DNA of 26,917 nucleotides from positions 1 to 26,917 of the forward strand of contig PAVA01000087.1 of NCBI GenBank assembly GCA_002712945.1, in the 5' to 3' direction. The stretch is from Citromicrobium sp. (GTDB lineage Bacteria; Pseudomonadota; Alphaproteobacteria; Sphingomonadales; Sphingomonadaceae). Each line of letters opens with the position of its first letter. The stretch's first letter is position 1. Below are positions 5,384 to 26,917 of the stretch, one piece after another. The notes beneath the pieces are model-generated. The model was not told the origin of the DNA, did no database searches, and saw only the letters and a program-made list of their open reading frames with translations. A program made the translations under genes and the position numbers.

Positions 5384-5683
5384 ATGGCGGACGACCCAAG
5401 TTATCCGGTCGGCACTGCGAGTGTCGCATGGACAGACAAGTCGGGCAATGGGCAGCTTCACGTCTTTTCGACCGACGGATACGACGTGATCGAACGTTTT
5501 TGGAACGGATCGGGCTGGTCGACGGGCGATTTCAAACAGCCCGGCAGCCAGGTTTCGGCGACCGGATATCTGCTCGACGACGGTTTCTACATGCGGGTCT
5601 ACTGCACGAGTGGGGACAAGACGACGGAATGGTGCAAGGACGGCGACGGCGACTGGTTCCAAGGCGACTACACCACCAACTAG
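5384..5683 (+). CDS. Fucose-binding lectin of the RSL/AAL beta-propeller type
   Basis: This 99-residue protein matches my memory of the Ralstonia solanacearum lectin RSL almost block by block: two tandem W-motif blades, ERFWNGSGWSTG.FKQPG and TEWCKDGDGDWFQGDYTTN. RSL forms a trimer, giving a six-bladed propeller with fucose sites within and between monomers. Blade 2 keeps the Arg/Glu pair (Arg71, Glu82), and Trp40 and Trp45 of blade 1 supply the aromatic partners, so one site looks intact. In the other site the Arg position is His26 (Glu37 kept), the first aromatic is Lys85, and one residue is inserted before Trp91, so it is probably altered. There is no signal peptide, as in RSL. The ATG at 5384 has ribosome site GGGGAG; the longer open frame upstream covers the riboswitch and was rejected. 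GC is about 58% in a 180-base hand count, lower than the neighbours, which suggests acquisition. Confidence 0.9.
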   Translation: MADDPSYPVGTASVAWTDKSGNGQLHVFSTDGYDVIERFWNGSGWSTGDFKQPGSQVSATGYLLDDGFYMRVYCTSGDKTTEWCKDGDGDWFQGDYTTN

Positions 5684-5701: not shown

Positions 5702-8329
<2,628 letters not shown>

Positions 8330-8381
8330 AGAATCCTGATCTCCCGGCTATTGCCTTTCCGGGATGTCGTGGCGCCCGGTC

Positions 8382-9440
8382 TCAGGCCGCCATCGTGAAA
8401 GGTTCGAGCCCGGCGAGTCGCGTCTTGCGCTCCAGCTCGGGAATCGCGCGCGGCGTCGCGCCTTTCGCCGCCTTCGCGATCGCCGCGATATGCGCGGGCG
8501 TGGTCCCGCAGCAGCCGCCGACGATGTTGACGAGGTTCTCCTTGAACCAGACGCCGATCAGCTCGGCGGTCTGATCCGCCTCCTGGTCGTATTCGCCCAG
8601 ATCGTTGGGAAGACCCGCGTTGGGATAGGCGAGGATCAGCGTATCCGCCTGCCGCGCCAGCGCGGCGAGATGCGGACGCAGCTTGTCCGCCCCGAAGGAG
8701 CAGTTGACGCCCACCGCGATCGGATCGACATGGCGCACCGCATGCCAGAAGGCCTCGACCGTATGGCCCGACAGGTTCCGGCCCGAATTGTCGGTGATCG
8801 TGAAGCTGAGCATGATCGGCACTTCGCGGCCCGCCGCTTTCGCGGCTTCCTGCGCCGCCATCGCCGCGACCTTGGCGTTGAGCGTGTCGAAGATCGTCTC
8901 GATCAGGATGAAGTCCACCCCGCCCTCGATCAGGGCGTCGCACTGTTCGCGGTAGACGCCAAGCATCTGGTCGAAATCGACCTCGCGAAAACCCGGATCC
9001 TCGACATCGGGGCTGAGCGAAAGCGTCTTGTTGGTCGGCCCGATGGCACCCGCGACGAAGCGGCGGCGACCGTCCTTCGCTTCGGCTGCCTCGGCCGCCT
9101 CGCGCGCGACCTTGGCGCCCGCGAGGGTCACCTCGCGGACCAGATGCTCGGCCTTGTAGTCGGCCAGCGCGATGCTGGTGGAGCTGAAGGTGTTGGTCTC
9201 GATCATGTCGGCGCCGGCGTCGAGATATTCCTTGTGAATATCGCGGATGACATCGGGTCGGGTCAGGTTGAGCAGGTCGTTATTGCCCTTCTGGTCGGCA
9301 TCGAGACCCAGGTCGCCCGCATAGTCCTCTTCGGTCAGCTTGCGGTTCTGGATGCCCGTGCCGTAGCCACCGTCGAAGACGAGGACGCGTTCGCGCGCGG
9401 CTTCGCGCAGGGCCTGTGCTGCGGATTGCTGGTGGCTCAT
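8382..9440 (-). CDS. metH: Homocysteine S-methyltransferase domain (first half of split MetH)
   Basis: This 352-residue protein is the N-terminal homocysteine-binding barrel of methionine synthase as a free-standing gene. The three zinc cysteines are all in place: Cys247 in GVNCSFG and Cys310-Cys311 in GGCCGTTP, numbers that coincide with those I recall for Escherichia coli MetH. The N-terminus carries FDGGYGTGIQ. The start at ATG 9440 overlaps the metF stop in ATGA (9437-9440); an extension to 9566 only reads metF out of frame. It transfers the methyl group from methylcobalamin on the partner protein to homocysteine. The split arrangement is common in sphingomonads. Confidence 0.96.
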   Translation of the reverse strand: MSHQQSAAQALREAARERVLVFDGGYGTGIQNRKLTEEDYAGDLGLDADQKGNNDLLNLTRPDVIRDIHKEYLDAGADMIETNTFSSTSIALADYKAEHLVREVTLAGAKVAREAAEAAEAKDGRRRFVAGAIGPTNKTLSLSPDVEDPGFREVDFDQMLGVYREQCDALIEGGVDFILIETIFDTLNAKVAAMAAQEAAKAAGREVPIMLSFTITDNSGRNLSGHTVEAFWHAVRHVDPIAVGVNCSFGADKLRPHLAALARQADTLILAYPNAGLPNDLGEYDQEADQTAELIGVWFKENLVNIVGGCCGTTPAHIAAIAKAAKGATPRAIPELERKTRLAGLEPFTMAA

Positions 9441-10408
9441 GCTGTCTTCTCCCCTTCGCCTTTCGGCCTCATCCCCAGCAGGTGGCAGATCGAGTAGGCC
9501 AGATCGGCGCGGTTCAACGTGTAGAAGTGGTAGTGGCGGATGCCGCCCGCATAGAGGCGGCGGCACATCTCTCCCGCCACCGTCGCGGCGACGAGCTTGC
9601 GCGCGGAAGGCCGGTCGTCCAGCCCCTCGAACAGGTCGTCCATCCAGTCCGGGAACTCCGCCCCGTTCTGGCCGGCGAACTGGCGCGCCTTGGCGACATT
9701 GGTGATCGGCAGCACGCCCGGTACGATCGGCACGTCGATCCCCGCCTTGTCGGTCTTTTCGAGGTAGTCGAAAAAGGTGTTAGGCGAGAAGAAGAACTGC
9801 GTGATCGCCCGGTCCGCGCCTGCATCGATCTTGCGCTTGAGGTAATCGATCTCCTCCTGCTGGCTCTTCGCATCCGGATGCATTTCCGGATAGGCGCTGA
9901 CCGAAATCTCGAAATCGGCGACCTCTTTCAGGCCATGGACCAGTTCTTCGGCGCTGTTGTAGCCTTCGGGGTGCGGCTTGAACGGCCCAAGCGAGCCGTC
10001 CTCCTGGGGCATGTCGCCGCGCAGCGCGACGATATGGCGCACGCCCGCTTCCCAGTATTGCTCGGCGATACGCTGCGTTTCTTTCCTCGAGGCGTTGACG
10101 CAGGTGAGGTGCGCGGCGGCGGGCAGGCCCGCCTCCTGGATGATGCGCGCGACCGTCTTGTGCGTGCGCTCTCGCGTCGAGCCGCCCGCGCCATAGGTGA
10201 CCGAGACGAAGTGCGGATCGAGCGGCTTCAGTTCCTGAACCGCATTCCACAGCGATTCTTCCATCTTCTCGTTCTTCGGCGGGAAGAACTCGAAGCTGGC
10301 GTCGATATCGCCCGGCAGACCGCTGAAGAGCGGATCGTTCTTCGCGCGGGTCCTCTCCTGCGCGGGATCGAGCCCATGGGCGAGCGGTGGGGTCGGTTGG
10401 GCCGTCAT
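9437..10408 (-). CDS. metF: 5,10-methylenetetrahydrofolate reductase
   Basis: MetF reduces 5,10-methylene-THF to 5-methyl-THF, the methyl donor for methionine synthase, using FAD. The 323-residue protein shows the SFEFFPPKN block, with Glu40 as the expected catalytic glutamate, YGAGGSTR (72-79) and ALRGD (128-132), whose Asp132 corresponds to the flavin-tuning aspartate of E. coli MetF. It overlaps its neighbours by four bases at both ends, so it is translationally coupled to the regulator gene upstream and to metH downstream. Its substrate is the product of the nearby gcv operon. Confidence 0.97.
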   Translation of the reverse strand: MTAQPTPPLAHGLDPAQERTRAKNDPLFSGLPGDIDASFEFFPPKNEKMEESLWNAVQELKPLDPHFVSVTYGAGGSTRERTHKTVARIIQEAGLPAAAHLTCVNASRKETQRIAEQYWEAGVRHIVALRGDMPQEDGSLGPFKPHPEGYNSAEELVHGLKEVADFEISVSAYPEMHPDAKSQQEEIDYLKRKIDAGADRAITQFFFSPNTFFDYLEKTDKAGIDVPIVPGVLPITNVAKARQFAGQNGAEFPDWMDDLFEGLDDRPSARKLVAATVAGEMCRRLYAGGIRHYHFYTLNRADLAYSICHLLGMRPKGEGEKTA

Positions 10409-12139: not shown

Positions 12140-12167
12140 TTGCCCTGCCTCGCGCGTTGCCGATACC
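12140..12167 (+). promoter_or_regulatory. Possible adhC promoter
   Basis: TTGCCC (12140-12145) and GATACC (12162-12167) are separated by 16 bases and would give a short leader before adhC at 12194. The match to a sigma70 consensus is modest. It lies in the 98-base gap shared with the divergent flavin reductase gene. Confidence 0.25.
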
Positions 12168-12193
12168 AGCCCCCGGAAGAAGGAAAGCCTTTC

Positions 12194-13300
<1,107 letters not shown>

Positions 13301-13314
13301 GGAGAGAAGGAAGA

Positions 13315-13695
13315 ATGTTCAGCCACGTGATGCTCGGCGCCGACGATATCGACGCCTCCAAGAAATTCTACGACGCCTGCTTCAAGGCGCTCGGCGGGCG
13401 CGAAGGCTCGGTCGATCCCAAGGGCCGGGTGATGTACATCCACAACGGCGGCATTTTCATGCTGACCAAGCCGATCGACGGCCAGCCCGCAAGCTGCGGC
13501 AACGGCTCCACCATCGGCTTCGCCGCCTCCAGCGAGGAAATGGCGGATGCCTGGCACGAAGCAGGCGCGGCCAATGGCGGCACGCCGATCGAAGACCCGC
13601 CGGGCATGCGCGAAGGTGGCGGCTTGAAGCTCTACCTTGCCTACCTGCGCGATCCGGCGGGCAACAAGGTCTGCGCGATGTATCGCCCGGGGTGA
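13315..13695 (+). CDS. VOC-fold protein in the formaldehyde operon
   Basis: This 126-residue protein has the vicinal-oxygen-chelate fold: two beta-alpha-beta-beta-beta halves, an N-terminal strand with His4, and a C-terminal YLRDPAGNKVCAMY strand. The classical His/His/Glu metal set looks incomplete: the strand following DPAGNK has Cys-Ala where a metal Glu is usual, so metal-dependent catalysis is doubtful. It sits 14 bases after adhC with a strong ribosome site (GGAGAGAAGGA) and four bases before fghA, so it is firmly part of the operon. A role with glutathione-formaldehyde adducts is plausible by position only. It could equally be a binding protein for a glutathione conjugate. Confidence 0.85.
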   Translation: MFSHVMLGADDIDASKKFYDACFKALGGREGSVDPKGRVMYIHNGGIFMLTKPIDGQPASCGNGSTIGFAASSEEMADAWHEAGAANGGTPIEDPPGMREGGGLKLYLAYLRDPAGNKVCAMYRPG

Positions 13696-13699
13696 CGCC

Positions 13700-14539
13700 G
13701 TGACGATAGAGACCCTTTCCGAGAACAAGGCCTTCGGCGGCACGCAGGGCGTCTATCGCCATGCGTCGCGCGCGACGGGCACCGACATGACCTTTTCGGT
13801 GTTCGTGCCGCCACAGGCGGAGCACGGCCCCTGCCCGGTGCTCTGGTATCTCTCCGGCCTGACCTGCACCCACGCGAACGTCACCGAGAAGGGCGAATAC
13901 CGCGCTGCCTGTGCGCAGCACGGTATTATCTTCGTCGCGCCCGACACCAGCCCGCGCGGAGACGGCGTGGCGGACGAGGACAGCTACGACATGGGCCAGG
14001 GTGCGGGGTTCTATGTCGATGCGACGCAAGAGCCGTGGGCTCCGCACTTCATGATGCGCAGCTATATCGAGGAGGAGCTGCCCGCGCTGATCGCCAAGCA
14101 ATTCCCGGTCGACATGGCGCGGCAAGGCATCACCGGGCATTCCATGGGCGGGCACGGCGCGCTCACCATCGGGCTACGCAATCCCGGCACCTACCGCAGC
14201 ATCAGCGCCTTCGCCCCGATCGTCGCACCGATGCAGGTGCCATGGGGCGAAAAGGCGCTAGCGAGCTATCTGGGCGACGACCGCGCGGCCTGGCGCGAAT
14301 ACGACGCCGTTGCGCTGATCGAGGATGGCGCGCGCGCCGAGGCGCTGCTGATCGATCAGGGCACGGCGGATCAGTTTCTGAAGGAGCAGCTGAGGCCCGA
14401 ACTGCTCGACGCCGCCTGTGCCAAGGCGCGCATCGAATTGGTGCTGAACCTGCGGCCGGGGTACGACCACAGCTACTACTTCATTTCGAGCTTCATGGCC
14501 GACCACGTGACCTGGCACGCCGAGCGGCTGAAGGCCTAG
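13700..14539 (+). CDS. fghA: S-formylglutathione hydrolase
   Basis: This 279-residue alpha/beta hydrolase splits S-formylglutathione to formate and glutathione, the last step of glutathione-dependent formaldehyde oxidation. The nucleophile elbow is GHSMGGHGA with Ser148; Asp224 in IDQGTADQFL and His257 in GYDHSYYF complete the triad. LSGLTCTHAN (51-60) forms the substrate pocket. I chose GTG 13700 because the family's N-terminus (TLSENKAFGG) follows directly and it lies four bases after the VOC stop. A longer frame from 13637 overlaps the VOC gene. It ends 12 bases before the convergent diguanylate cyclase gene. Confidence 0.95.
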   Translation: MTIETLSENKAFGGTQGVYRHASRATGTDMTFSVFVPPQAEHGPCPVLWYLSGLTCTHANVTEKGEYRAACAQHGIIFVAPDTSPRGDGVADEDSYDMGQGAGFYVDATQEPWAPHFMMRSYIEEELPALIAKQFPVDMARQGITGHSMGGHGALTIGLRNPGTYRSISAFAPIVAPMQVPWGEKALASYLGDDRAAWREYDAVALIEDGARAEALLIDQGTADQFLKEQLRPELLDAACAKARIELVLNLRPGYDHSYYFISSFMADHVTWHAERLKA

Positions 14540-16218: not shown

Positions 16219-17961
16219 TTGCATTTGCGCAGTTCCATCAAGCCCCAGGGGGCATTCGCCCTGCTCTTGCCGATAGCGCTTGCCATTGCGGCATGTGCGG
16301 CTCCTGCGCAGCCTGCCACGCGCCAGGGCGTCCAGCCTCGGGCGATGGTCGTCGCAGCCCATCCGCAGGCGACACAGGCCGGGCTCGACATGCTCGCCAG
16401 GGGCGGCAACGCCATCGATGCGGCTATCGCGGTTCAGGCCATGCTCGGGCTGGTCGAGCCGCAAAGCTCGGGAATCGGAGGCGGAGCGTTTCTGCTCTAC
16501 TACGATGCCGCAACCGGCCAGGTGACCGCCTATAACGGCCGCGAGAAAGCGCCGGCCGGGGCCACGGGCGACATGCTGCTCGACAGCGACGGCAAGCCGC
16601 TGGCGCGCAGCGAAGCGATGCTCGGCGGCAGGGCGACGGGCGTGCCGGGGGTGCTGGCAATGCTCGCAATGGCGCACGCGGATCACGGCCAGCTTCCCTG
16701 GAGCGACGCGTTCGAGGGCACCGTGTCGCTGGCCCGGGAGGGATACCCCCTTTCCGGCCGCACCGATCGCTATATTCACGGATCCTACCCCCAATCGGGC
16801 GCTGCCGATGTGCGCGCGGTCTTTCGCATGCCGGATGGCGAACTGGCACGCGAGGGCGATCGCCTCATGAACGACGCCTATGCCGACACGCTGGAAAGAA
16901 TCGCCCGCGGCGGCATCGCGGCATTCTACGACAGCGACGATATCGCGGGAGCGATCGTGGCCCGAACCGGACAGGGTCCCTTGCCGGGCACGATGACGGG
17001 GGACGATTTGGAAGACTACCGTGCTCAGCGTGTCGCCCCCCTGTGCCGCCCTTACCGTGCCTACGTAATATGCGTCCCTCCGCCTCCGTCGAGCGGCGTG
17101 GCGGTACTGCAGATACTGGGCATCCTGGAGGGGACCGATATCGGTCGGCGCGGTCCGGACGATCCGCAAGCCTGGTTCCTGTTCGCCGAGGCGAGTCGCC
17201 TCGCCTATGCCGACCGGGATCGGTACGTGGGCGATCCCGATTTTGTGGACGTACCGATCGAGGGCATGCTCGATCCGGCCTACTTGGCCCGACGCCGGGC
17301 GATGATCGCCCGGACTGCGATGGCCGCGCCTGCGGCAGGCCGGTTCGCGCAGGACATGCCGGGCACGGATAGCACCCGTGAGCCCGGCGGCACCTCCCAT
17401 TTCGTCATCGTCGATGCCCACGGCAACGTCGCTTCGATGACCACGACCATCGAATCCTATTTCGGCAGCGGTCGGACGGTGGGGGGCTTCTTCCTCAACA
17501 ACCAGCTCACCGATTTCGCGTTCTCGCCAGTCGATGGCGAGGGGCGCCCGGCGGCGAACGCAGTGGCGGGGGGCAAGCGGCCGCGGGCTTCTATGTCGCC
17601 CACCATCATTCTCGATCGCGAGGGCAAGGTCGTCGCGGCGCTCGGCTCGCCCGGGGGCAACGCCATCATCGCCTATGTCGCGAAGACGATCGTGGGCATG
17701 GTCGACTGGAACCTTTCCCCCCGGGACGCCATCGCCCTGCCGAACGTCGTCGCACGCGGAAGCACGTTTCGCGGGGAACGCGACAAGCTTCCTCTCCCGG
17801 TAATCGAGGATCTGGACGCACGCGGCGTAGTGGTCGTCCCCGGCAGCGGAGAGGAATCGGGCCTGCACGCGATCTTCGCCAGCGAAGGCCGATACGAGGG
17901 CGGAGCAGACCCGCGCCGCGATGGCACCGTGGGCTCTTTGCCGGTGCCTCCGACCAAATGA
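16219..17961 (+). CDS. Gamma-glutamyltransferase-like Ntn hydrolase, lipoprotein form
   Basis: The protein is a GGT-family Ntn hydrolase (about 580 residues), made as a precursor that self-cleaves before the catalytic Thr. In GGTSHFVIVDAHGN the nucleophile is Thr392, so the chains would be about 391 and 189 residues. Arg108 in YNGREKAPA corresponds to the glutamate-carboxylate-binding Arg114 of E. coli GGT; Asp432 in NNQLTDF corresponds to Asp433. At the oxyanion SS pair it reads ASM (457-459), with Ala in place of the first Ser. I chose TTG 16219 because GGAGAGG precedes it and it gives a good lipoprotein signal with lipobox IAAC (Cys26). A TTG at 16156 is also in frame. Likely periplasm-facing. 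Its stop overlaps the next gene by ATGA, so it heads an operon with the D-amino acid dehydrogenase and RidA. Confidence 0.88.
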   Translation: MHLRSSIKPQGAFALLLPIALAIAACAAPAQPATRQGVQPRAMVVAAHPQATQAGLDMLARGGNAIDAAIAVQAMLGLVEPQSSGIGGGAFLLYYDAATGQVTAYNGREKAPAGATGDMLLDSDGKPLARSEAMLGGRATGVPGVLAMLAMAHADHGQLPWSDAFEGTVSLAREGYPLSGRTDRYIHGSYPQSGAADVRAVFRMPDGELAREGDRLMNDAYADTLERIARGGIAAFYDSDDIAGAIVARTGQGPLPGTMTGDDLEDYRAQRVAPLCRPYRAYVICVPPPPSSGVAVLQILGILEGTDIGRRGPDDPQAWFLFAEASRLAYADRDRYVGDPDFVDVPIEGMLDPAYLARRRAMIARTAMAAPAAGRFAQDMPGTDSTREPGGTSHFVIVDAHGNVASMTTTIESYFGSGRTVGGFFLNNQLTDFAFSPVDGEGRPAANAVAGGKRPRASMSPTIILDREGKVVAALGSPGGNAIIAYVAKTIVGMVDWNLSPRDAIALPNVVARGSTFRGERDKLPLPVIEDLDARGVVVVPGSGEESGLHAIFASEGRYEGGADPRRDGTVGSLPVPPTK

Positions 17962-19172
17962 GCCATCCCCGTACGGCCATCGTGATCGGCGCCGGCGTGG
18001 TCGGTGTGTCCTCGGCCTATGCTCTGGCGCGCAGAGGCGTCGAGGTCACGCTGGTTGACCGGCGAGAGGGGCCCGCCATGGAGGCCTCGCACGCGAACGG
18101 CGCACAGCTGAGCTATCTCTATACCGACGCTCTGGCGAATCCGGCACTGCTCTCGCAATTGCCGAAACTCGCGTTCGGCCAGGTCCCGGCGTTCAGGCTG
18201 CAGTGGCGCGTGGACCCGGATTACCTGCGCTGGCTCGGTGCCTTCCTCGCCAACTGCACTGCTGCGCGGTTTCGCAGGAACACTCTGGCAGCGCTGCAAC
18301 TCGCGCTCGAATCGCAGGTCGCGATGGAGGAACTGGCGAGCGAGCACGATCTCGAATTCGGCTATCGCACCGCCGGCAAGATGCACGTCTATCGCTCGGC
18401 CCGCGCGTGGCGGGCGGCGCAGGAGATCGCCGCCATGAAAGCGCAGCCGGGGGTCGTCCAGCATGCGCTGTCTCCGGCGGAGGCTATCGCGATCGAGCCG
18501 GCGCTGGAAGCGGCAGCCGGGGGCATTGTGGGCGTACTGCATTCGCCGGAGGAAGCGGTCGGCGATCCGCATGCCTTTGCCTGCGCGATGCACGATCTGC
18601 TGGTCCGGCGATGGGGGGTGACCGCCCATTTCGACCGGCGGGTGGAGCGCCTGGACCTGAGCGATGCGGCAGCGGCGGTCATCCTCGATAATGGCGAACG
18701 TCTTGCTGCCGATATCGTGATCGATTGCACGGGTTCCGAAGGGGGTCGCCTGTTGCGCGCCCACGGACACAGGCTCCCGATCATCCCGATGAAAGGCTAT
18801 TCCTTCACCGCACCGGCGGCGAGCGGATCGCCCCTGGTGAGCATCACCGATGTCGGAGCGCGCGTCGTCTTCACGCGGCTCGAGGGCGGCATTCGCGTGG
18901 CGGGCCTGGCCGACCTCGGGAATGCCGACCGCAAGATCGATGCCCGGCGAATGGAGATACTGATCGATACGGCCCGTGCGTCGCTGCCAGAGGGTGCGGC
19001 CTATGGCGAGGCCACCGGCCTGTGGTGCGGCCTGCGCCCGATGACGCCCGACGCCACCCCACGCATCGCGCGGCCGCATCCGCGGCTTGCCTACAACCTC
19101 GGGCATGGAATGCTCGGCTGGACGATGGCGATGGGCTCGGCCGAGCGTCTTGCAAGATTGATCCTCCCCTGA
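17958..19172 (+). CDS. DadA-type FAD-dependent D-amino acid dehydrogenase
   Basis: The 404-residue protein is a DAO-superfamily flavoenzyme. The N-terminal dinucleotide motif VIGAGVVGVSSAYALARRG is followed by the acidic VDRREGP. The C-terminal NLGHGMLGWTMAMGSAE block is the signature of DadA-like D-amino acid dehydrogenases, which oxidise D-amino acids to imino acids and pass electrons to the respiratory chain on the inner face of the cytoplasmic membrane. The exact substrate cannot be read from the sequence. It overlaps the upstream GGT-like gene by four bases and is followed 17 bases later by ridA, a pairing also found in the Pseudomonas D-glutamate (dguAB) operon. Other DAO members such as sarcosine or hydroxyproline oxidases are less likely given the C-terminus. 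Confidence 0.9.
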   Translation: MSHPRTAIVIGAGVVGVSSAYALARRGVEVTLVDRREGPAMEASHANGAQLSYLYTDALANPALLSQLPKLAFGQVPAFRLQWRVDPDYLRWLGAFLANCTAARFRRNTLAALQLALESQVAMEELASEHDLEFGYRTAGKMHVYRSARAWRAAQEIAAMKAQPGVVQHALSPAEAIAIEPALEAAAGGIVGVLHSPEEAVGDPHAFACAMHDLLVRRWGVTAHFDRRVERLDLSDAAAAVILDNGERLAADIVIDCTGSEGGRLLRAHGHRLPIIPMKGYSFTAPAASGSPLVSITDVGARVVFTRLEGGIRVAGLADLGNADRKIDARRMEILIDTARASLPEGAAYGEATGLWCGLRPMTPDATPRIARPHPRLAYNLGHGMLGWTMAMGSAERLARLILP

Positions 19173-19189
19173 CCTGCGAGAGAACCTTT

Positions 19190-19573
19190 ATGAATCAGTC
19201 TCCCACGACGCTGCCGAAAAAAGTGCCGCTCAGCCGTGCACGACGAGCCGGGCCGTTGCTTTTCCTCTCCGGCCAGCTGCCCCGCTTTCCGGGCGGCGGA
19301 ATGCGCGAGGGCCCAATCGAAGCGCAGACCGAGCAGGCGATTGCCAACCTGCGCACCGTCCTGGAAGAGCACGGGCTTGGCCTGGGCGACGTGGTCAAGA
19401 CGACCGTGTGGCTTACCTCGGCCGAGCATCTGGAAGGCATGAACCGGGTCTATGCGGCATCGTTTCCCGAGCCGTTCCCGGCCCGGTCCACGGTGGTATC
19501 GGGGCTGGTCGCACCGGCGGATATCGAAATCGAAGCGGTCGCCTACGACCCGCAAGGTTCCTCGGCCCGCTAG
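19190..19573 (+). CDS. RidA/YjgF family enamine/imine deaminase
   Basis: This 127-residue protein is of normal RidA length. Hallmarks are FLSGQLP (25-31), QTEQAIANL (46-54), GDVVKTTVWL and the terminal FPARSTVV, with Arg99 as the carboxylate-binding arginine, then DIEIEAVAYDP. RidA proteins hydrolyse reactive 2-iminoacids or enamines to 2-oxoacids and ammonia, protecting PLP enzymes. Directly after an imine-producing D-amino acid dehydrogenase its job is evident. ATG 19190 has a GAGAG ribosome site. Its last four bases overlap the end of the convergent second GGT-like gene, so no terminator fits between the two operons. Confidence 0.94.
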   Translation: MNQSPTTLPKKVPLSRARRAGPLLFLSGQLPRFPGGGMREGPIEAQTEQAIANLRTVLEEHGLGLGDVVKTTVWLTSAEHLEGMNRVYAASFPEPFPARSTVVSGLVAPADIEIEAVAYDPQGSSAR

Positions 19574-21321
19574 GAACCTTCTTCCTCGATCCTCAGGTTC
19601 CCGACGCCGATCGCGGCGGCGCCGGGGCGGCGCGGATCGGCTGCACCCATGATCTTGCCATCGTCGATCATGATCGTCTGCGCGCTACCGATCGTGTCGC
19701 GCAGTTCGATCTCGTGACCGAGCGACTGCAGCACCTGCAGGGAATCGGAGCTGAAGCCGGGCTCGATCTCGAGTTCCGAAGGTTTCCAGTTCTGGTGCAG
19801 GCGCGGCGCGACCGTGGCTTCGGCGATATTCATATCGTGGTCGACCACGTTGAGGATGATCTGCAGCACGGTGTTGATGATGGTGCTGCCGCCCGGTGAG
19901 CCCACCACCAGATAGGGCTGATCGTCGCGAAACACGATCGTCGGCGTCATGCTCGACAGCATGCGCTTGCCCGGCTCGATCTTGTTCATCTCGCTGTTGG
20001 AAAAGGTCGCGCCGGGCACATCGACCCGCAGGGAGAAATTCTTGATCTGGTTGTCGAGCAGGAAACCTGCGCCCTCGACAAGCACGCCCGAGCCGAACGA
20101 AGAGCCCAGCGTGTAGGTGTTGGAGACGATGTTCCCCTGCTTGTCGACAACCGAGAAATGCGTCGTGTCGGGGCTTTCGTTCGCCATGGGATCGAAGGGG
20201 GAGATCGCTTCGGGAGGCGTGCTGCGCTCGCGCGAGATCAGCTTCGCGCGCTCCTGCGCGTAGGCCTTGGAAATCAGCACGTCGACCGGGTTGCCGACGA
20301 AATCCGGATCGCCCATCGACTGCCGCCGGTCGGCATAGGCCAGCTTCATCGCCTCCGACAGGATGTGCACCGTCGATGCGCTGTTATGCCCCATCTCCTT
20401 GAGATTGAATCGCTCGAGCATGTTGAGCATTTCGAGCAAGGCCACCCCGCCGGTGCTGGCCGGAGGCATGGTCACGACCTGCAAACCGCGATAGCTGGTG
20501 GCGATCGGCTCGCGGATCTTCGCCTCGTAGGAGCCCAGGTCGGCCTTCGAGATCAGGCCGCCATGGGCCTCCATATCCGCCACGATCCTGTCGGCGATCT
20601 CGCCCGAGTAGAAATCTTCCGCGCCGACAGTCGCGATCCGGTCCAGCGTCCAGGCGAGATCGGGCTGCTTGAGCCGTTCCCCGTACATGTATGGCGTTCC
20701 ATCGGGCTTGAAGAAGGTGGCGAGTGACGCGTCCGAACTGCTCAACCGCTTGCGCCCCCAGCGCAGGGCTTCGGACAGGTCGCGGGTCACGATAATGCCG
20801 TCGCGCGCCAGCTCCACAGCGGGCCGGACGACGTCCTCCCACGGCAGCGAACCCCAGCGTTCATGCGCGAGCTTGAGCCCGGCGACCGTGCCGGGCACAC
20901 CCGAGGCCATGTAGCCGCGGTCGGCATTGTCTTCGCGCTTCCCTTTGCGGTCGAGGAAGAGCTTTGCCTCGGCCGCCGCAGGGGCGGCTGTGCGGTAGTC
21001 GATCGCCACGGTGCGCTTCTCGTCGGCGAGGTAGACGAGCATGAAGCCGCCCCCGCCCAGGTTGCCGGCCCGGGGCAGGGTCACGGCCAGGGCGAAGGCG
21101 GTGGCGACCGCGGCGTCGATCGCGTTGCCGCCCTGCGCCATGATCCTGGCGCCGACCCTGCTGGCGACTTCGTTCTGGCTGACGACCATCGCCTCGTCAT
21201 CGACGACCGGGTGGTGGATGGTGGCGTAGTCGAGCAGCTCCTGCTGCGCTGCCGCCGGGGCATGGGCCACCGGCGAAAGGCACAGGCCGAGTGCCGCAAG
21301 AGCGGCGACGATCGTCTTCAT
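19570..21321 (-). CDS. Gamma-glutamyltransferase-like Ntn hydrolase, exported (second copy)
   Basis: The precursor has 583 residues with a Sec signal peptide (LGLCLSPVAHAPAAAQ, cleavage near AHA or AAA). Autocleavage would occur before Thr386 in DTTHFSVVDKQGNIVSN. Arg110 in DYRTAAPA and the oxyanion pair Ser456-Ser457 in RMLSSMTPTIV are conserved, as is GSPGGS. However, the position of E. coli Asp433, which binds the alpha-amino group of the gamma-glutamyl moiety, is Asn428 (DNQIKNFS). In E. coli GGT an Asp-to-Asn change there is known to favour cephalosporin-acylase-type substrates, so this enzyme may not be a standard gamma-glutamyl hydrolase. It is the last gene of the minus-strand operon and differs clearly from the other copy, so they are not a recent duplication. 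Confidence 0.9.
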   Translation of the reverse strand: MKTIVAALAALGLCLSPVAHAPAAAQQELLDYATIHHPVVDDEAMVVSQNEVASRVGARIMAQGGNAIDAAVATAFALAVTLPRAGNLGGGGFMLVYLADEKRTVAIDYRTAAPAAAEAKLFLDRKGKREDNADRGYMASGVPGTVAGLKLAHERWGSLPWEDVVRPAVELARDGIIVTRDLSEALRWGRKRLSSSDASLATFFKPDGTPYMYGERLKQPDLAWTLDRIATVGAEDFYSGEIADRIVADMEAHGGLISKADLGSYEAKIREPIATSYRGLQVVTMPPASTGGVALLEMLNMLERFNLKEMGHNSASTVHILSEAMKLAYADRRQSMGDPDFVGNPVDVLISKAYAQERAKLISRERSTPPEAISPFDPMANESPDTTHFSVVDKQGNIVSNTYTLGSSFGSGVLVEGAGFLLDNQIKNFSLRVDVPGATFSNSEMNKIEPGKRMLSSMTPTIVFRDDQPYLVVGSPGGSTIINTVLQIILNVVDHDMNIAEATVAPRLHQNWKPSELEIEPGFSSDSLQVLQSLGHEIELRDTIGSAQTIMIDDGKIMGAADPRRPGAAAIGVGNLRIEEEGS

Positions 21322-21336
21322 CTGTCTTGTTCCGTG

Positions 21337-21747
21337 CTAGGCTGCGAACAGCTGTTCCATGTCGCGAAAGGTCTTGAATTCGAGCGCGGTCCCCGCCGGT
21401 TCGCGCACGAAGAAGGTGCCCTGCTCTCCGGTCTGGCCGGCGAAGCGCACGTAGGGTTCGATCACGAATTCGACATTTCGGCTGCGCAGGCGTTCGGCCA
21501 GCGCCTCCCAGTCGTCCCAGGCGAGAACCACTCCGAAATGGAAGGACGGGACCGAATGGCCGTCGACCGGATTGGTCGCCGCGTCCTCGGTGTTGCCGAC
21601 AAGGTGGGCGGTCACCTGATGGCCGAAAAGATCGAAGTCGACCCATCGCGACGCTTCGCGGCCCACGCCGGCACCGATCGTGTCGACCATGAAGGCACGG
21701 GTTGCGGCGAGGTCGGTCGTGGGGAAGGCAAGATGAAACGGCTGCAT
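21337..21747 (-). CDS. VOC-fold (glyoxalase-like) protein
   Basis: This 136-residue protein belongs to the vicinal-oxygen-chelate superfamily, close to small dioxygenase/glyoxalase-like members. A plausible metal triad is His5 (MQPFHLAF), His70 (SFHFGVV) and Glu123 (GTALEFKTF), all at the expected strand positions, so unlike the VOC protein of the formaldehyde operon this one looks metal-competent. RFAGQTGEQGTFFVREP (101-117) is a recurrent block of this subgroup. ATG 21747 has an excellent ribosome site (AGGAGA). It sits between the symporter and GGT-like genes in the same operon. Its substrate is not predictable; it may act on a modified amino acid or 2-oxoacid product. Confidence 0.87.
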   Translation of the reverse strand: MQPFHLAFPTTDLAATRAFMVDTIGAGVGREASRWVDFDLFGHQVTAHLVGNTEDAATNPVDGHSVPSFHFGVVLAWDDWEALAERLRSRNVEFVIEPYVRFAGQTGEQGTFFVREPAGTALEFKTFRDMEQLFAA

Positions 21748-21770
21748 GGAAACGTCTCCTGTTCGGGGGG

Positions 21771-23033
21771 CTATTCGGTTGGGAGGGCGCGATAGATTTC
21801 CGGGTCGAGGTCTTTTTCCCAGACCGAGACGACGGTCGCTACGGCCAGGTCTCCGGTCACGTTGGCGACCGTGCGCATCATGTCGAGGATGCGGTCGAAA
21901 GGCAGGATGAAGCCCACGACGATGGCGGTCTGGGCACTGCTCATCCCGATCACGTCGAGCACCGCCGCCATGAGGAAAAGCGAGGCCGACGGGACCGACG
22001 CCGTCCCGATCGAGACCAGGGTGGTGGTGAACCCGATCAGCACGTAATCGAAGAAATCCAGAGGCAGGCCGAATGCCTGGGCGGCAAAGATCGAAATCAG
22101 CGCGACGTACAGAGCGGTCCCGTCCATGTTGATCGTCGCCCCCAGCGGCAATACCGAGGATGCGACCGGCGCCGAGATCCCGAGGTTGTGCTCTGCCGCC
22201 GAAAGGCTCGCAGGCAAGGTCGCCGAGCTGGAGGATGTCGAGTAGGCGACCAGTTGCGGCTCGCGGACACCGCGAAAGAACGGCAGGACCGGCAGGCGCG
22301 CAAACAGCTTCACGATCCCGCCGTGGACAATCAACATGTGCAGGAAGCAGCCGAGATAGACCGCGACGGCCAGGAGGAACACGTTGATGAACGTCGCCGG
22401 GCCCACCGTGCCCATGACCCAGGCGACCAGCGCGAAGACGCCGAAGGGCGCAAACTCCATGACGATGGCGGTTACTTTCAGCATCGTTTCCGAACCGGCG
22501 TCGAACACCGCGACCAGCGGCTTGCCGCGCTCGGCCGACAGGATGAGGCCGGCTCCGACGAGAACAGCGAAGAAGATGACCGCAAGCACATTGCCTTCGG
22601 CGAAAGCGGCGAAGGGATTTTCGGGCACGATCCCCATCAATCGGTCGGTCAGCGAACCTGCACTGTCGAGCGTCGTAGCCTCCGCGCCGCTGAGATCGAT
22701 CCCGGCGCCGGGCCGCAGGACCAGCGCCAGAACGATGCCGATCACGATGGCGAGGAACGTCGTCCCCAGGTAAAGCGCAATCGCCTTGCTGCCGATCGAG
22801 CCGAGGCGTTTCGGATCCTTCATCGCGGTGACGCCCGAAACCAGCGTCACGAAAACCAGCGGGACGATCAGCATTTTGATCATGCGGATGAACAGGTCGC
22901 CGACCCACTTGATCTGCTCGCTCGCGTCGCCGACCACCAGCCCGGCAATCGCCCCGAGAACGAGTGCGGCGAGGATGCGCTTCCACAGGACGATGCCGAA
23001 CCACCGGCGGGCCACCGCGCGCATCACCGGCAT
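21771..23033 (-). CDS. Sodium- or proton-coupled acidic amino acid symporter (DAACS family)
   Basis: The 420-residue membrane protein has the glutamate-transporter fold. The HP1 serine motif STSSSSATLP lies at 265-274, the TM7 cation motif NMDGT at 302-306 and the TM8 substrate motif DRILDMMRTVANVTGD at 380-395. Mapped on archaeal GltPh, Asp384 equals Asp394 (binds the amino group), Arg387 equals Arg397 (binds the side-chain carboxylate), Thr388 equals Thr398 and Asn391 equals Asn401. Arg plus Asp indicates aspartate/glutamate, not a neutral amino acid or a simple dicarboxylate (DctA lacks the Asp). Both L- and D-aspartate are accepted by some relatives. ATG 23033 has AAAGGA upstream and overlaps the deacylase gene by ten bases. 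It would import the amino acid released in the periplasm. Confidence 0.93.
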   Translation of the reverse strand: MPVMRAVARRWFGIVLWKRILAALVLGAIAGLVVGDASEQIKWVGDLFIRMIKMLIVPLVFVTLVSGVTAMKDPKRLGSIGSKAIALYLGTTFLAIVIGIVLALVLRPGAGIDLSGAEATTLDSAGSLTDRLMGIVPENPFAAFAEGNVLAVIFFAVLVGAGLILSAERGKPLVAVFDAGSETMLKVTAIVMEFAPFGVFALVAWVMGTVGPATFINVFLLAVAVYLGCFLHMLIVHGGIVKLFARLPVLPFFRGVREPQLVAYSTSSSSATLPASLSAAEHNLGISAPVASSVLPLGATINMDGTALYVALISIFAAQAFGLPLDFFDYVLIGFTTTLVSIGTASVPSASLFLMAAVLDVIGMSSAQTAIVVGFILPFDRILDMMRTVANVTGDLAVATVVSVWEKDLDPEIYRALPTE

Positions 23034-24622
23034 GTTCCTTTCGGAGGATGGCGGAGCAGTGCGCGGCCAGGCAGCTTGCCCGTCGTCCGGCCCTGTTCGA
23101 TTGCGAGGGACCCGTTGACGAAGAGATAGCGCACGCCCGTCGCCAGGATTTCCGGCTCGCCGTAGGTCGCGCGCGGAGCGAAGGTGGCGGGATCGATCAC
23201 CGCGATATCGGCGAATGCTCCGGTTCGCAGGTAGCCGCGATCTGTCAGCCCGAGCAGGTCGGCGCTCGCTCCCGTGCTGCGGCGAACGAACGCCGCCGTG
23301 CCCATTTCGCCCGAAACGACCAGATCGCGGTAGGCCTTGGGGAATGTGCCGTATTTGCGCGGATGCCCGGTGCTCCCGTCCGAACCCGTCACGACCCAGG
23401 GCTGCATCGCGAAGGCCGCGATATCCTTCGTGTCCATGTTGAACGATGCGACCCGCGCATCGGTGGTTTCGAGGATCGCGATCGCTGCTTCGACAGGGTC
23501 TTTGCCCGTGGCTTCGGCAACCTCGGCAAGGGTCATCCCGTCCCATCTGGCAGCCTCGCCGAAGCCCCGCGTCAGCAGCAGGCTTTCGGCCCCGCCGCGA
23601 CGGCGCAGGTTCTCGCGCATCTCGGCGCGCAGGCCTTGTGCGGTTTCCGGGTCTTTCAACCGCAGACGCAGGCCGGCCATTCCGCCGTCGAGCGCCCAGC
23701 GCGGGACGAGAGCATTGCTGATCCGCGTGCCCGAGGCTCGCCACGGATATTGATCGGCGGTGACCTGCTGGCCCCCGGCGCGGGCGCGTTCGATCATCGC
23801 GATCACGGCTTCGCTGCGCCCCCACACATCCGGGCCGAGCGCCTTGATATGGGCGATATGCACTGCACTGCCCGACAGCCGACCGATCTCGAGCGCTTCG
23901 GCAACCGAGGCCTCGAGCCCGATCGAATAACTGCTCTCGTCGCGCAGATGGCTGTCGTAGATCGCGCCGCGCTTGCCTGCTTCGCGCGCCAGTGCGGCGA
24001 CCTCTGCGGTGTCCGCGAAAGATTGCGGGGCGTAGTGCAGGCCGGTCGAAAGCCCGAGCGCGCCTTCGCAGATCGCGCCCGCCACGAGAGCCTTCATCGC
24101 GGCCAGTTCGGCGGCATCGGGCGCGCGGTCCGCATCGCCGACCACTTCGGCCCGGACCGTGCCGAACCCCACGAGCAGCCCGACATTGGTACCGATCCCG
24201 CTCCGCTCGAGACGGGCGGCCACCTCGGCGATGCGGGGCGTGCCGCCGCCATCATTGCCGATCACGACCGTCGTAACCCCCTGATGGAGGAAGGCCGGGT
24301 TGGCCCGCCGTGCCGGATCTTCGGAGGAAAGGTCGCCGTCGGCATGGGTGTGGGGGTCGATGAAACCGGGCACCACCAGCATGCCCGCGGCATCGATCGT
24401 TTCCCCTGCTTCGACCGCCTCGGCTCCCTTCGGGCCGACATAGACGATCCGATCCGCCCGGATGGCCACATCGGCGAGGCGGCCGGGTTCGCCCGAACCG
24501 TCGTGAACCACACCTCCCCGGATCAGCACATCGGCGCGGAGCGGCTCGGCCAGGGCCGGCAGCGGCGACAATATCAGCGGCAGGCCCGCGAATACCGTCG
24601 CCAGAGCGCGCAGGGCGGCCAT
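23024..24622 (-). CDS. Exported N-acyl-D-amino acid deacylase (amidohydrolase superfamily)
   Basis: The 532-residue precursor has a Sec signal (hydrophobic to about residue 22, cleavage after LPALA near 25), so it works in the periplasm. It is a D-aminoacylase-type amidohydrolase: metal motif DPHTHADG (His91, His93), HQGVTTVV, SHLRDE (His225), HIAHIKAL (255-262) and the late GSDGSTGHPRKYGTFP with Asp415. In Alcaligenes D-aminoacylase the bridging ligand is Cys in GNCG; here the same position is Asp124 (GNDG), so metal content or substrate may differ. It releases a D-amino acid from an N-acyl conjugate. Only seven bases separate it from the TonB receptor stop and it overlaps the symporter gene, a clear operon. 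A D-amino acid dipeptidase activity is an alternative. Confidence 0.9.
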   Translation of the reverse strand: MAALRALATVFAGLPLILSPLPALAEPLRADVLIRGGVVHDGSGEPGRLADVAIRADRIVYVGPKGAEAVEAGETIDAAGMLVVPGFIDPHTHADGDLSSEDPARRANPAFLHQGVTTVVIGNDGGGTPRIAEVAARLERSGIGTNVGLLVGFGTVRAEVVGDADRAPDAAELAAMKALVAGAICEGALGLSTGLHYAPQSFADTAEVAALAREAGKRGAIYDSHLRDESSYSIGLEASVAEALEIGRLSGSAVHIAHIKALGPDVWGRSEAVIAMIERARAGGQQVTADQYPWRASGTRISNALVPRWALDGGMAGLRLRLKDPETAQGLRAEMRENLRRRGGAESLLLTRGFGEAARWDGMTLAEVAEATGKDPVEAAIAILETTDARVASFNMDTKDIAAFAMQPWVVTGSDGSTGHPRKYGTFPKAYRDLVVSGEMGTAAFVRRSTGASADLLGLTDRGYLRTGAFADIAVIDPATFAPRATYGEPEILATGVRYLFVNGSLAIEQGRTTGKLPGRALLRHPPKGTCR

Positions 24623-24629
24623 CGCCGGA

Positions 24630-26917
24630 TCAGAACCGCTTGCGAACCGACGCGTACCAGTAGCGCCCGCGGTTCGAGTGGAGACCCCCGAGATAGCCGA
24701 AGCTGCTGTCTGCCAGAGGCGGATCTTCGTTGGTCACGTTCCGGGCCCCGATCCGGAAGCGGGTGCCGTCCATCGCCCCCTCGTCGAAGGTGTACTGGAC
24801 ATAGACATTCGCGTAGGCCCAGTCATCGACCACGAACTGCGTGCCATCGCTCAGCGTCGCCCCGGTATCGTACACCGAACTGACGTAGCGGCCGAAGACC
24901 CCGGCGCCGAAATTGCCGAGCCGCCAGGTCAGCGACGTCGTCAGGCGCCAGAGCGGGTTGCCGTCCTGCCGCAGAAGGCCGTTGGCGCCATCGACGACGA
25001 AGCCGGAGGTGATCTCGCCGGTTTCCTGCGCGTCGATGATCGCCTGCGCAATCGGCGAAGGCTCCTGGTCGAAGCGCAGCAGGTGGGCTGCATTCACGTT
25101 GAGCTTGAAATCGCCGATGGCCGTGTCGTCGAGATCGTAGAGCAGGGTGAAGTCGATCCCCTCGATCTGCCTGGGCAGCAGGTTGAGGTAATTGTCCAGC
25201 ACCCGCACGATCTCGCCCACCGGCTCCAGCCCGGTCCCGGCGAAATTGTCGATATCGTCCTGGGTCGGCGCTTCGCGGATGACCGCCGGATTGGACGAGC
25301 CACGAACGCGAAGCAGATAGTCGTAGGCGATCTGGTTGTCGTCGCCGAAGATCCCGACGACGTCGTTCTGGTTGATCCGCCAGTAGTCCACGGTGGCAAT
25401 CAGGGTGCCGAAGCGCCCGTTGGCGATGTTGGGCTGGAAAACCGCACCCAGCGAATAGGTATTGTTGGTTTCCGGACCAAGCTCCTGGCTGCCCTGCCGC
25501 TCGCTCACGACCGATTGCGAGCGACCGCAATCGTCGATGGTAGCAATGCGCTGGGCACGAATATCGGCTTCGCACCGGATATAGTCGAGCCGGCCATTGC
25601 TGCGCTCGAGACCATTCTCGTTGATCTGCACGAGGTTCGGCGCGCGGAAGCCCTCCGAGTACGAGCCGCGGAGTTTCAGCCACGGGAAGACCGTCCATGC
25701 AGCCGCGACCTTGGGCTTGAGGATGGACCCGACATCGGAATAGCTCTCGAAGCGTGCCGCCAGCTGGACGTCGATCCGCTCGACAAGCGGGATGTCCATG
25801 TCCGGACTGATGACCGGCACGGCAAATTCGAGATAGGCGGAGGCAACGTCGCGGTCGCCGGAGGAATCGGGCGTGGCGCTGGAGCCGAGCAGATCGCTGG
25901 TCGATTCCTCGCCCGAAACCGGGTTGGTGAACGTGATCGTCCCATCGAGGCGTTCGTCCCGATCGTCGTTGAACGCTTCGTAGCGAAATTCGCCGCCGAA
26001 GGCGACGCCGACATCGCCGGCCGGGAGCTGCAGCAGGTCGGGGCGCGAGATGCGCAGATCCCACAGGCCGAGCTGGCTCTTGTTGGTGCGATAGGCGTCG
26101 ACTGTGATCGCATCGATGATCGCCTGGTCGTTCGGGGTGCCGTCGCCGTTGGAGAAATCGGCCAGGTTGCCCCCGTTGAACACGTTGTAGGCCGAGGGCG
26201 TTTCGAGCGCGAGCGACTGCTGCAGCAAGGTGTTGCTGATGCGGTTCGACTTGTCCTCCGTGGTCGCTTCGGACCACAGCATCGCCGTTTCCCAGTCCCA
26301 GCCGTCGACCTCGCCGCGCAATCCCGCAAGCAGGCGGTAATTCGTGTTCTTGACCTCGATCACCTCCGGCCCGGCATCGACGAAGCGATAGTCGTTCAGG
26401 ATCATCGCCACGCCTTCGTCGGGAATATTCAGGCCGGGCAGGCGATTGGGATTCGCGCTTCCGTCGGAGAAGGTGACCGGGCCGAACGGGTTCCAGTAAT
26501 TGTTGGCGGGGACGATGATATCGACCGCGTTCAGCGGCGCGTCCGCTTCCCGGTAGGTGGTGTAGTCGGAGAGATAGAGACCGGCCTCGACAAAGGCTTC
26601 CAACCCGCCCTCGAATTCATGGTTGCCGAAGAGAAAGGCATTGAAGCGCTCGGTATCGCCGGCGAGCCAGCGATCATTCGCCGTATTGTATCGGTAGAGC
26701 CGGTCCTCGTCGTTGGCAGAATTCTGGGTGCTGTTGTCGGCGCACAGCCCATTGCCCAGATCCGCGAGGCAGCCGGCGATCGTATCGGGCTGGATGTGCC
26801 AGTAATCGCTGGGGGAGGTTATCGCGGTGCCGTTCCGCCGAACGGTGGCGGTGTAGTTGTAGAGCTGGAACTCGCCGAAGGGCGAATTCGTCGACCGATT
26901 GTCGAAATCGGTATCGC
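24630..26917 (-). CDS. TonB-dependent outer membrane receptor, C-terminal part
   Basis: The frame is open from the stop at 24630 to the window edge, so about 762 residues of barrel are seen and the plug domain and start are missing. Barrel features are abundant: WDWETAMLWSEAT, ASAYLEFAVPVISPDM, LKLRGSYSEGFRAPNLVQINE (the SEGFRAP motif is a hallmark), NTYSLGAVFQPNI, NVYVQYTF and a final RGRYWYASVRKRF ending in the outer-membrane insertion Phe. Paired cysteines occur in a predicted outer loop near the window edge. Position immediately upstream of a periplasmic D-aminoacylase suggests it imports the acylated amino acid or peptide. Its ligand cannot be read from the sequence. The start codon nearest the edge of the shorter open frame (26603) is a TTG inside the barrel, not a real start. 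Confidence 0.93.
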   Translation of the reverse strand, partial: DTDFDNRSTNSPFGEFQLYNYTATVRRNGTAITSPSDYWHIQPDTIAGCLADLGNGLCADNSTQNSANDEDRLYRYNTANDRWLAGDTERFNAFLFGNHEFEGGLEAFVEAGLYLSDYTTYREADAPLNAVDIIVPANNYWNPFGPVTFSDGSANPNRLPGLNIPDEGVAMILNDYRFVDAGPEVIEVKNTNYRLLAGLRGEVDGWDWETAMLWSEATTEDKSNRISNTLLQQSLALETPSAYNVFNGGNLADFSNGDGTPNDQAIIDAITVDAYRTNKSQLGLWDLRISRPDLLQLPAGDVGVAFGGEFRYEAFNDDRDERLDGTITFTNPVSGEESTSDLLGSSATPDSSGDRDVASAYLEFAVPVISPDMDIPLVERIDVQLAARFESYSDVGSILKPKVAAAWTVFPWLKLRGSYSEGFRAPNLVQINENGLERSNGRLDYIRCEADIRAQRIATIDDCGRSQSVVSERQGSQELGPETNNTYSLGAVFQPNIANGRFGTLIATVDYWRINQNDVVGIFGDDNQIAYDYLLRVRGSSNPAVIREAPTQDDIDNFAGTGLEPVGEIVRVLDNYLNLLPRQIEGIDFTLLYDLDDTAIGDFKLNVNAAHLLRFDQEPSPIAQAIIDAQETGEITSGFVVDGANGLLRQDGNPLWRLTTSLTWRLGNFGAGVFGRYVSSVYDTGATLSDGTQFVVDDWAYANVYVQYTFDEGAMDGTRFRIGARNVTNEDPPLADSSFGYLGGLHSNRGRYWYASVRKRF

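Follow-up and report, generated by a model that had tools for sequence, protein, structure and literature searches.

In the accessible parts of two papers, the DgcN-DgcA pathway has been named for D-glutamate; dgcN is named there for the amides of acidic D-amino acids as well as for the acids themselves. The murein tripeptide routes, MpaA-YcjG-PepD in E. coli and YkfABCD in Bacillus, have the tripeptide cut by MpaA or YkfC and L-Ala-D-Glu epimerised and then hydrolysed, according to the available portion of their description (PMC2954226). In Pseudomonas and Raoultella, dadA expression is raised on D-glutamate as carbon source in the part of PMC6131576 that is accessible, which provides a precedent for a DadA-type enzyme acting on this amino acid. 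Here we describe a locus of Citromicrobium sp. on a 26,917 nucleotide stretch of DNA (contig PAVA01000087.1, positions 1 to 26,917), the whole of which we call the window. Its eight genes code for a TonB-dependent receptor, a D-aminoacylase-type amidohydrolase (the deacylase), an SDF/DAACS symporter, a VOC protein, two gamma-glutamyltransferase-like proteins (GGT1 and GGT2), a DadA-type D-amino acid dehydrogenase using flavin adenine dinucleotide (FAD) and a RidA-type imine deaminase. We read it, with a probability of about 0.6 judged from sequence comparison, as a scavenging system ending in D-glutamate. No publication describing this gene set or its task was found by title and abstract start, in a search that covered the subscription literature partially.

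In the route that we propose, the receptor would carry gamma-glutamyl peptides across the outer membrane, and in the periplasm the GGT pair would cut the gamma bond while the deacylase would release D-glutamate from an N-linked acyl or aminoacyl group, as in L-Ala-D-Glu. The symporter, of the Asp/Arg type, would import the acidic amino acid, DadA would oxidise D-glutamate to the imine at the membrane, and RidA would speed hydrolysis of the imine to 2-oxoglutarate and ammonia. Relatives would use the DgcN-DgcA route in place of DadA and an M14 peptidase in place of the GGTs. Gene content, gene order, the signal-like N-termini of the deacylase and GGT2, the residue changes and the two replacement patterns were observed; all substrates, the order of the cuts, the uptake of D-glutamate by the symporter and the source of the peptides are what we infer.

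The deacylase and its DadA or DgcN-DgcA partners

A scan of genome contigs with the deacylase as query gave 80 loci, in 38 of which the deacylase has at least 46% identity over a good part of its length. Four of these were dropped before a tree was made: L009 (like L008; DgcN/DgcA, or Dgc, type), L015 (neither type), L046 (a fragment; DadA) and L053 (in two pieces; DadA), none of which has both DadA and Dgc. The other 34, together with 23 loci taken from the surroundings of deacylase orthologs in 119 genomes of the family, make up 57 relatives' loci; the remaining 42 scan loci, which stand outside this count, have no DadA, DgcN or DgcA by BLAST. DadA was found in 12 of the 57, DgcN/DgcA in 30 (L122 being scored from DgcA alone), neither in 15 and both in none. 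With the window counted as a DadA locus, the chance of such zero overlap would be 1.2e-5 if the loci were independent, which they are not. The Dgc genes were recognised by clustering of neighbours together with family scans, and the single tested copies of DgcN (NF041892, from L004) and DgcA (NF042940, from L006) score above the curated equivalog cut-offs. Neither gene is among the eight locus proteins of the window, as judged by Pfam and NCBIfam. In a deacylase tree of 58 rows including the window, made by a quick method, the DadA or Dgc label has to change three times, two of the changes being forced by starred branches; DadA is placed in a main clade that includes the window, in an Acidovorax pair (L026/L028) within a Dgc clade, and in L124. 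The DadA of 8 of the 12 DadA loci is 45-68% identical to that of the window.

The same association was seen among the 119 genomes, of which 24 match the deacylase at E < 1e-140 (35 at 1e-60), an ortholog limit chosen after we had seen the gap between 3.8e-143 and 5e-74 in the best match per genome. DgcN above its cut-off or DadA of the window's subfamily occurs in 23 of these 24 and in 1 of the 95 genomes without the deacylase. The lone deacylase genome with neither (G041) has DgcA at its locus and a DgcN-like gene elsewhere that is below cut-off. DgcN above cut-off is present in 19 of the 119 genomes (30 have any DgcN-family match at E 0.001) and the window's DadA subfamily in six, at 47-72% identity; there the dehydrogenase gene lies at most 10 kb from a receptor ortholog in all six and at most 4 kb from the deacylase in five. 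Generic DadA paralogs (32-37% identity at E < 1e-50, in 17 of the 119 genomes) served as a control and are not linked to the deacylase, which occurs in 4 of the 17 genomes with them versus 20 of the 102 others (p 0.75). Since the deacylase tracks DgcN or the window's DadA subfamily and shows no link to generic DadA, the end product of the locus is most likely D-glutamate. The earlier note had proposed scavenging of conjugated acidic D-amino acids in general; co-occurrence by locus and by genome supports this, with D-glutamate as the best-supported product, and D-aspartate is left without support of its own.

The deacylase gene (23024-24622, minus strand) was assigned from its nearest solved relatives, D-aminoacylase, the N-acyl-D-glutamate deacylase 3gip (BbDam, which we take to be Bb3285 of Bordetella bronchiseptica) and PpOngB. 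Residues H91/H93, H225, H258, D415, K260, Y292 and R422 align with D-aminoacylase and are invariant in an alignment of 17 rows, the His residues being those of the metal site and the Asp the catalytic one. The Cys of the GNCG motif, which we also take to be a metal ligand in D-aminoacylase, is absent, the window having GND(124)G and the column holding Asp in 15 rows and Cys in the other 2. For the Lys, Tyr and Arg, roles in holding the alpha-carboxylate come from the accessible part of the work on PpOngB. The best NCBIfam model, NF006560 (PRK09061), gave 151 of 340 bits, which is below the curated cut-off. Judged by hydropathy with a crude threshold, 53 of 57 deacylases, that of the window included, have a signal-like N-terminus, one further row being too short; three of the other four look signal-like by eye, and that of L018 is ambiguous. 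DgcN reportedly acetylates D-glutamate, and DgcA is said to racemise N-acetyl-D-glutamate; export would thus keep the deacylase away from cytosolic DgcN, since deacylation of N-acyl-D-glutamate in the same compartment would undo the work of DgcN. Bb3285 is also said to cleave L-Met-D-Glu, which would make L-Ala-D-Glu a plausible substrate, and we propose that the window's enzyme is a hydrolase of N-acyl- or aminoacyl-D-glutamate.

Several points weigh against reading the locus as a D-glutamate scavenging system. All counts and p values given here ignore relatedness, and the p values assume independent loci. The DadA of L021, L026, L028 and L037 is only 37-38% identical to that of the window, like generic DadA; thus the Acidovorax switch is weaker evidence for a DadA subfamily, and one of the two forced switches in the tree depends on that pair. 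When DgcN is taken alone with all 30 of its family matches, the link is less sharp, at 20 of 24 deacylase genomes versus 10 of 95 others. In one genome (G024) DadA (at L157) and DgcN (at L131) are both present, in different places, and DUF1611/DgcN-like genes also lie outside the locus in the genomes of L001, L002 and L003, so that the exclusion holds by locus and not strictly by genome. The specificity of the deacylase is also at issue: Arg295 of BbDam reads the gamma-carboxylate of D-glutamate, according to the available part of PMC12017989, and its candidate counterparts in the window, Arg300 and Arg308, lie in a loop without reliable alignment, which leaves this Arg unplaced. Moreover, at L157 the set is whole except for the deacylase, which is therefore not indispensable there. 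Besides L001, L157 and L053, no relative's locus was seen with RidA near the set; the symporter is present in 28 of the 57 relatives' loci, and uptake of D-glutamate by its class is a presumption of ours; the VOC gene plays no part in the proposed route. Peptidoglycan genes occur in none of the 12 DadA loci, the link to peptidoglycan being borrowed from the Dgc class and three closely related Luteimonas loci, and a PGA_cap (CapA) gene was found in 4 of the 12.

The DUF1611 search covered the genomes of 20 loci and gave matches in 17; these include the genomes of L003 and of two DadA loci, L001 and L002, and no match was found in the genomes of L011, L021 and L053. The pairs found elsewhere in the genomes of L001, L002 and L003 (L134, L135 and L136) are DgcN-DgcA-like, with 45-48% and 41-44% identity to the type found at the deacylase loci, and in L134 weak serine-hydrolase-like matches stand beside the pair.

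Layout of the locus and its variants in relatives

The window genes were called from open reading frame (ORF) lists with Pfam and NCBIfam scans. On the minus strand the receptor gene (24630-26915), which has Pfam TonB_dep_Rec_b-barrel above cut-off, covers the C-terminal 761 amino acids, the start being beyond the window edge; it is followed by the genes for the deacylase, the symporter (21771-23033; Pfam SDF above cut-off), the VOC protein (21337-21747; glyoxalase/dioxygenase fold, Pfam Glyoxalase above cut-off) and GGT2 (19570-21321). The plus strand carries GGT1 (16219-17961, with an uncertain TTG start), DadA (17958-19172; Pfam DAO) and RidA (19190-19573; Pfam Ribonuc_L-PSP, PF01042, above cut-off). 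By their coordinates, GGT1 and DadA share 4 bp and the deacylase and symporter genes 10 bp. The last genes of the two strands overlap in the CTAG at 19570-19573, which holds the stop codons of both RidA and GGT2, so that the two operons end on each other; this convergence had been described in the earlier note, and the seven families it had named were all recovered where it had put them by ORF lists, Pfam and NCBIfam. Its inventory had overlooked the VOC gene. Sec-type signal peptides on GGT2 and the deacylase, and a lipoprotein-like one on GGT1, were predicted from hydropathy and by eye. No sigma-70-like promoter sites were found in the window, where 1.4 were expected, and the 9 terminator-like sites compare with 6.3 (standard deviation 2.7) in shuffles.

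The general role that had been suggested for each part is likewise supported. Asp384 and Arg387 of the symporter were correctly numbered in the earlier note, and both align to the part of the best solved relative, an aspartate transporter, that forms its binding site; we take these residues of transmembrane helix 8 to be the substrate-binding ones of SDF/DAACS transporters. DadA gave 332 of 383 bits with its best NCBIfam model (PRK00711) and RidA 84 of 106 bits with TIGR00004, both below cut-off, and RidA carries a PARS motif, whose Arg is presumably catalytic. In the window, L001 and L157 the VOC gene separates those for the symporter and GGT2, and it was not seen in the other loci examined; a search with its protein gave at least 7970 relatives among the 7999 candidates listed, with uninformative names. 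The receptor is 86% identical to that of L001, where it has 1042 amino acids, and 35-49% identical to orthologs in 13 further loci, and a receptor ortholog is present in 18 of the 119 family genomes, with one weaker match in G040.

The eight genes occur in identical order, at 68-86% identity to the window, in Pelagerythrobacter rhizovicinus (L001), which argues that the locus is no chance assembly; a LysR-type gene lies upstream of the receptor there. This full set was found in L001 alone among the 80 scan loci. In L157 of genome G024, LysR, receptor, symporter, VOC and GGT2 genes face RidA, DadA and GGT1, and the deacylase is missing from the locus; the sole deacylase match of that genome at E < 1e-60 is at a separate place, L131, with DgcN and DgcA. 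L053 of Novosphingobium has the receptor, GGT2, DadA and RidA and the deacylase in two pieces, and lacks the symporter and GGT1. The exact set is thus rare and its pieces are modular, and the fixed set of seven families implied by the earlier note is not supported. Both GGTs, RidA and VOC are missing from most of the relatives' loci examined, and only the window, L001 and L157 were seen to carry the GGT1-DadA-RidA unit. The two operons accordingly gave a mixed result for co-occurrence, the DadA subfamily clustering with the receptor and deacylase and the GGT1-DadA-RidA unit being rare. We also considered the seven-family set as a universal module and rejected it, since most relatives are without several members.

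Seven other loci with the same class of receptor (L212, L213, L215, L218, L219, L220 and L222) carry a distant SDF symporter and, except for L218, an M14 peptidase, and neither deacylase nor DadA was found in the fetched stretches of them. Thus a core of receptor, cutter and symporter exists without the D-amino acid part, and these loci are perhaps an acidic-peptide version of the system. They also carry a sigma-54-type response regulator and a Cache-domain sensor kinase, the domains having been checked in L212. In genome G059 (L213) the deacylase gene is found on the same contig, at a distance of about 20 kb.

Elsewhere in the window, a 99 amino acid ORF (5384-5683, plus strand) is related to fucose-binding lectins of the RSL/BambL kind, with E of about 2e-17 to single-domain chains and no Pfam match at E 1e-5. 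It adjoins methionine synthase genes: the B12-dependent enzyme is encoded in two adjacent genes (5702-9566, minus strand) within a block of one-carbon genes, its homocysteine methyltransferase domain being separate from the pterin, B12 and activation domains.

Gamma-bond cutting and the source of the peptides

The two GGTs score 395.9 (GGT1) and 553 bits (GGT2) against the TIGR00066 cut-off of 357.85. The best solved relative of GGT1 is 4y23, which we take to be the GGT of Bacillus licheniformis, and that of GGT2 is 2e0w, presumably the E. coli enzyme. The catalytic Thr and the Arg for the alpha-carboxylate are Thr392 and Arg108 in GGT1, Thr387 and Arg110 in GGT2. However, the position that binds the alpha-amino group (Asp433 in E. 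coli) is Asp432 in GGT1 and Asn428 in GGT2; they are therefore not the equivalent pair of hydrolases first supposed, GGT1 being ordinary and GGT2 lacking the alpha-amino-binding Asp. Asn was found at this position in the window, L001, L053, L004, L007, L041, L157, L209, L210, L223 and duplicates, a set made up of all the GGTs examined at 44-87% identity to GGT2, L164-L167 (40-44%) apart. The Asn411 position is Gly, Ser or Thr in these Asn-type GGTs, and in L209 and L210 the substrate may differ, because the alpha-carboxylate Arg is also lost. The Asp is kept in every GGT1-like sequence examined and in the four E. coli-like GGTs L164-L167, and the remote GGTs of L211 and L221 have Ile and Val. 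Among the best 30 GGT loci from the 119 genomes, all five of the Asn type are in genomes with the deacylase, as against 5 of the 25 of the Asp type.

In the accessible part of a review, the D433N change in E. coli GGT is said to abolish transpeptidation, keep about 82% of hydrolysis and confer acylase activity on glutaryl-7-aminocephalosporanic acid (glutaryl-7-ACA), and class IV cephalosporin acylases are said to have Asn at this position. Judging from these data, GGT2 may cut N-blocked gamma-glutamyl peptides, as a hydrolase able to accept substrates whose alpha-amino group is blocked or missing, for example L-Ala-gamma-D-Glu-meso-diaminopimelate. We would go further only tentatively, the following being rather less probable than D-glutamate as end product: the GGT2 clade would have given up the alpha-amino-binding Asp to hydrolyse N-blocked gamma-D-glutamyl bonds (L-Ala-gamma-D-Glu-diamino acid), defining, alongside the epimerase route, a murein-peptide route that cuts D-glutamate out first and in which the gamma-cutters (M14 or Asn-type GGT) and the D-glutamate sinks (DadA or DgcN/DgcA) are interchangeable. 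If this were true, the cephalosporin-acylase-like state of GGTs would have a physiological substrate. An Asn-type GGT gene in L223 (10076-11887, minus strand, genome G067) adjoins an oligopeptide ABC importer (SBP_bac_5, permease and oligo_HPY ATPase), an adjacency that fits peptide substrates for this type.

A replacement pattern was also seen among loci with a receptor ortholog (at least 37% identity to the full L001 receptor and uncut; n=34), which were drawn from the deacylase scan with additions, L157 and a search of the 119 genomes with the L001 receptor. An M14 peptidase is present in 20, a GGT in 10, neither in four (L124, L216, L217 and L218) and both in none, the chance of which would be 7.6e-6 if the loci were independent; L039, which has M14 and no GGT, has a cut receptor and was left out for that reason. 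Among the 10 GGTs, those of L211 and L221 share no more than 30-32% identity with GGT2 and lie on the opposite strand; three Luteimonas receptor loci are near copies, and identity to the query falls to 33-38% in some of the M14 matches. The M14 protein of L002 belongs with the cytosolic carboxypeptidases, which we take to be a family of deglutamylases.

As for the peptides, a gene for PBP4, an AmpG-like protein or an M15 dipeptidase occurs in 24 of the 30 Dgc loci, none of the 12 DadA loci and 5 of the 15 with neither. In the Dgc loci PBP4 is found in 21, AmpG-like genes in 9 and M15 in three Luteimonas loci; the tested PBP4 copy is above its curated cut-off, and the tested AmpG copy is below, at 306.6 of 350 bits. 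The M15 half of a 'VanX' fusion query matched only L004, L007 and L041, the matches in L019, L020, L029, L030, L115, L128 and L130 being to the serine-hydrolase half only. Given this difference between the Dgc and DadA loci, the source could be either stem peptides or poly-gamma-glutamate; we favour peptidoglycan stem peptides for the system as a whole, with poly-gamma-glutamate as a rival to be taken seriously in the class to which the window belongs.

According to this rival, which we consider somewhat unlikely, poly-gamma-glutamate or gamma-glutamyl oligomers would be the source polymer in place of stem peptides, with D-glutamate still the product, each D residue of the polymer being an N-acyl-D-glutamate. 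Consistent with it, the CapA genes lie in DadA loci where PBP4, AmpG-like and M15 genes are absent, the M14 partners resemble presumed deglutamylases and GGT1 is nearest to a presumed Bacillus enzyme. We know of no CapA-type protein that is a polymer hydrolase, which counts against it, as do the M15 (D-Ala-D-Ala dipeptidase) genes of the Luteimonas loci L004, L007 and L041, which have the same receptor and both GGTs, and a diaminopimelate-decarboxylase-like gene at L024 (below cut-off, one copy scanned), the same cluster being present in L027. Bacillus GGTs, which lack the lid loop, are described as poly-gamma-glutamate degraders in the accessible part of the literature, in favour of the polymer.

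That the locus serves breakdown of glutathione or its S-conjugates appears improbable. Two GGTs, a glyoxalase-fold VOC gene and a glutamate symporter would suit such a task, as would a putative-esterase gene (13637-14539) beside an alcohol-dehydrogenase-like ORF (12140-13300), which from their sequences can be read as S-formylglutathione hydrolase and its partner. However, neither a D-amino acid dehydrogenase nor a D-aminoacylase would be needed for glutathione breakdown, the formaldehyde genes of the window are unmatched in L001, L157 and L158, and 118 of the 119 genomes have some GGT match, whereas Asn-type GGT2 and the window's DadA track the deacylase. An aminosugar-acid route like the ong cluster, in which OngB is a D-aminoacylase relative accompanied by RidA and TonB receptors in the available text, and which PpOngB as a solved relative of the window's deacylase would favour, is very improbable, since the eight locus proteins include no beta-hexosaminidase, KdgK, SSS transporter or deaminase dependent on pyridoxal phosphate (PLP) and OngB is described there as cytoplasmic, whereas the window deacylase looks exported.

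Comparison with known systems

Our comparison of sequences thus strengthens the general idea of the earlier note, narrows it to D-glutamate, and adds the modularity of the set and an unusual GGT. D-glutamate is present in nearly every bacterial cell wall and is long-lived in dissolved organic matter, and uptake of peptides containing it is little described in the literature searched. If our reading is true, a common aquatic and soil group would possess a D-glutamate route from the outer membrane to a dehydrogenase, with the two D-glutamate sinks as exchangeable modules, and a substrate would be predicted for a TonB receptor family, a deacylase subfamily and an unusual GGT clade.

In 30 of the 57 loci DgcN-DgcA, with the same proposed substrate, stands in for DadA next to the deacylase ortholog, whereas the window has a dehydrogenase with RidA and neither Dgc gene. 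The dguRABC genes of Pseudomonas aeruginosa also have a D-amino acid-type dehydrogenase beside a RidA-family gene; unlike the window, dgu is not known to include an outer-membrane receptor, deacylase or GGT, and the regulator by the receptor in L001 is LysR-type. The N-acyl-D-glutamate deacylase of Bordetella bronchiseptica (3gip, BbDam) is homologous to that of the window over most of its length, yet the window enzyme has a signal-like N-terminus and Asp124 in place of the metal-ligand Cys of D-aminoacylase. GGT2 shares its Asn with class IV cephalosporin acylases and E. coli GGT D433N, as far as the accessible part of the review goes, and differs from those acylases in being nearest overall to E. 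coli GGT and in having no known acylase activity. The ong cluster of Pseudoalteromonas resembles the window in its TonB receptor, D-aminoacylase relative and RidA, and differs in its sugar-acid substrate, cytosolic deacetylase, PLP deaminase, kinase and hexosaminidase, in the available part of PMC9537276. In the murein tripeptide routes, as given in the accessible text of PMC2954226, the gamma-D-Glu bond is likewise cut, by the metallocarboxypeptidase MpaA, and stem peptides serve as nutrients; however, L-Ala-D-Glu is epimerised there before it is split, whereas the window would free D-glutamate outside the inner membrane and then oxidise it.

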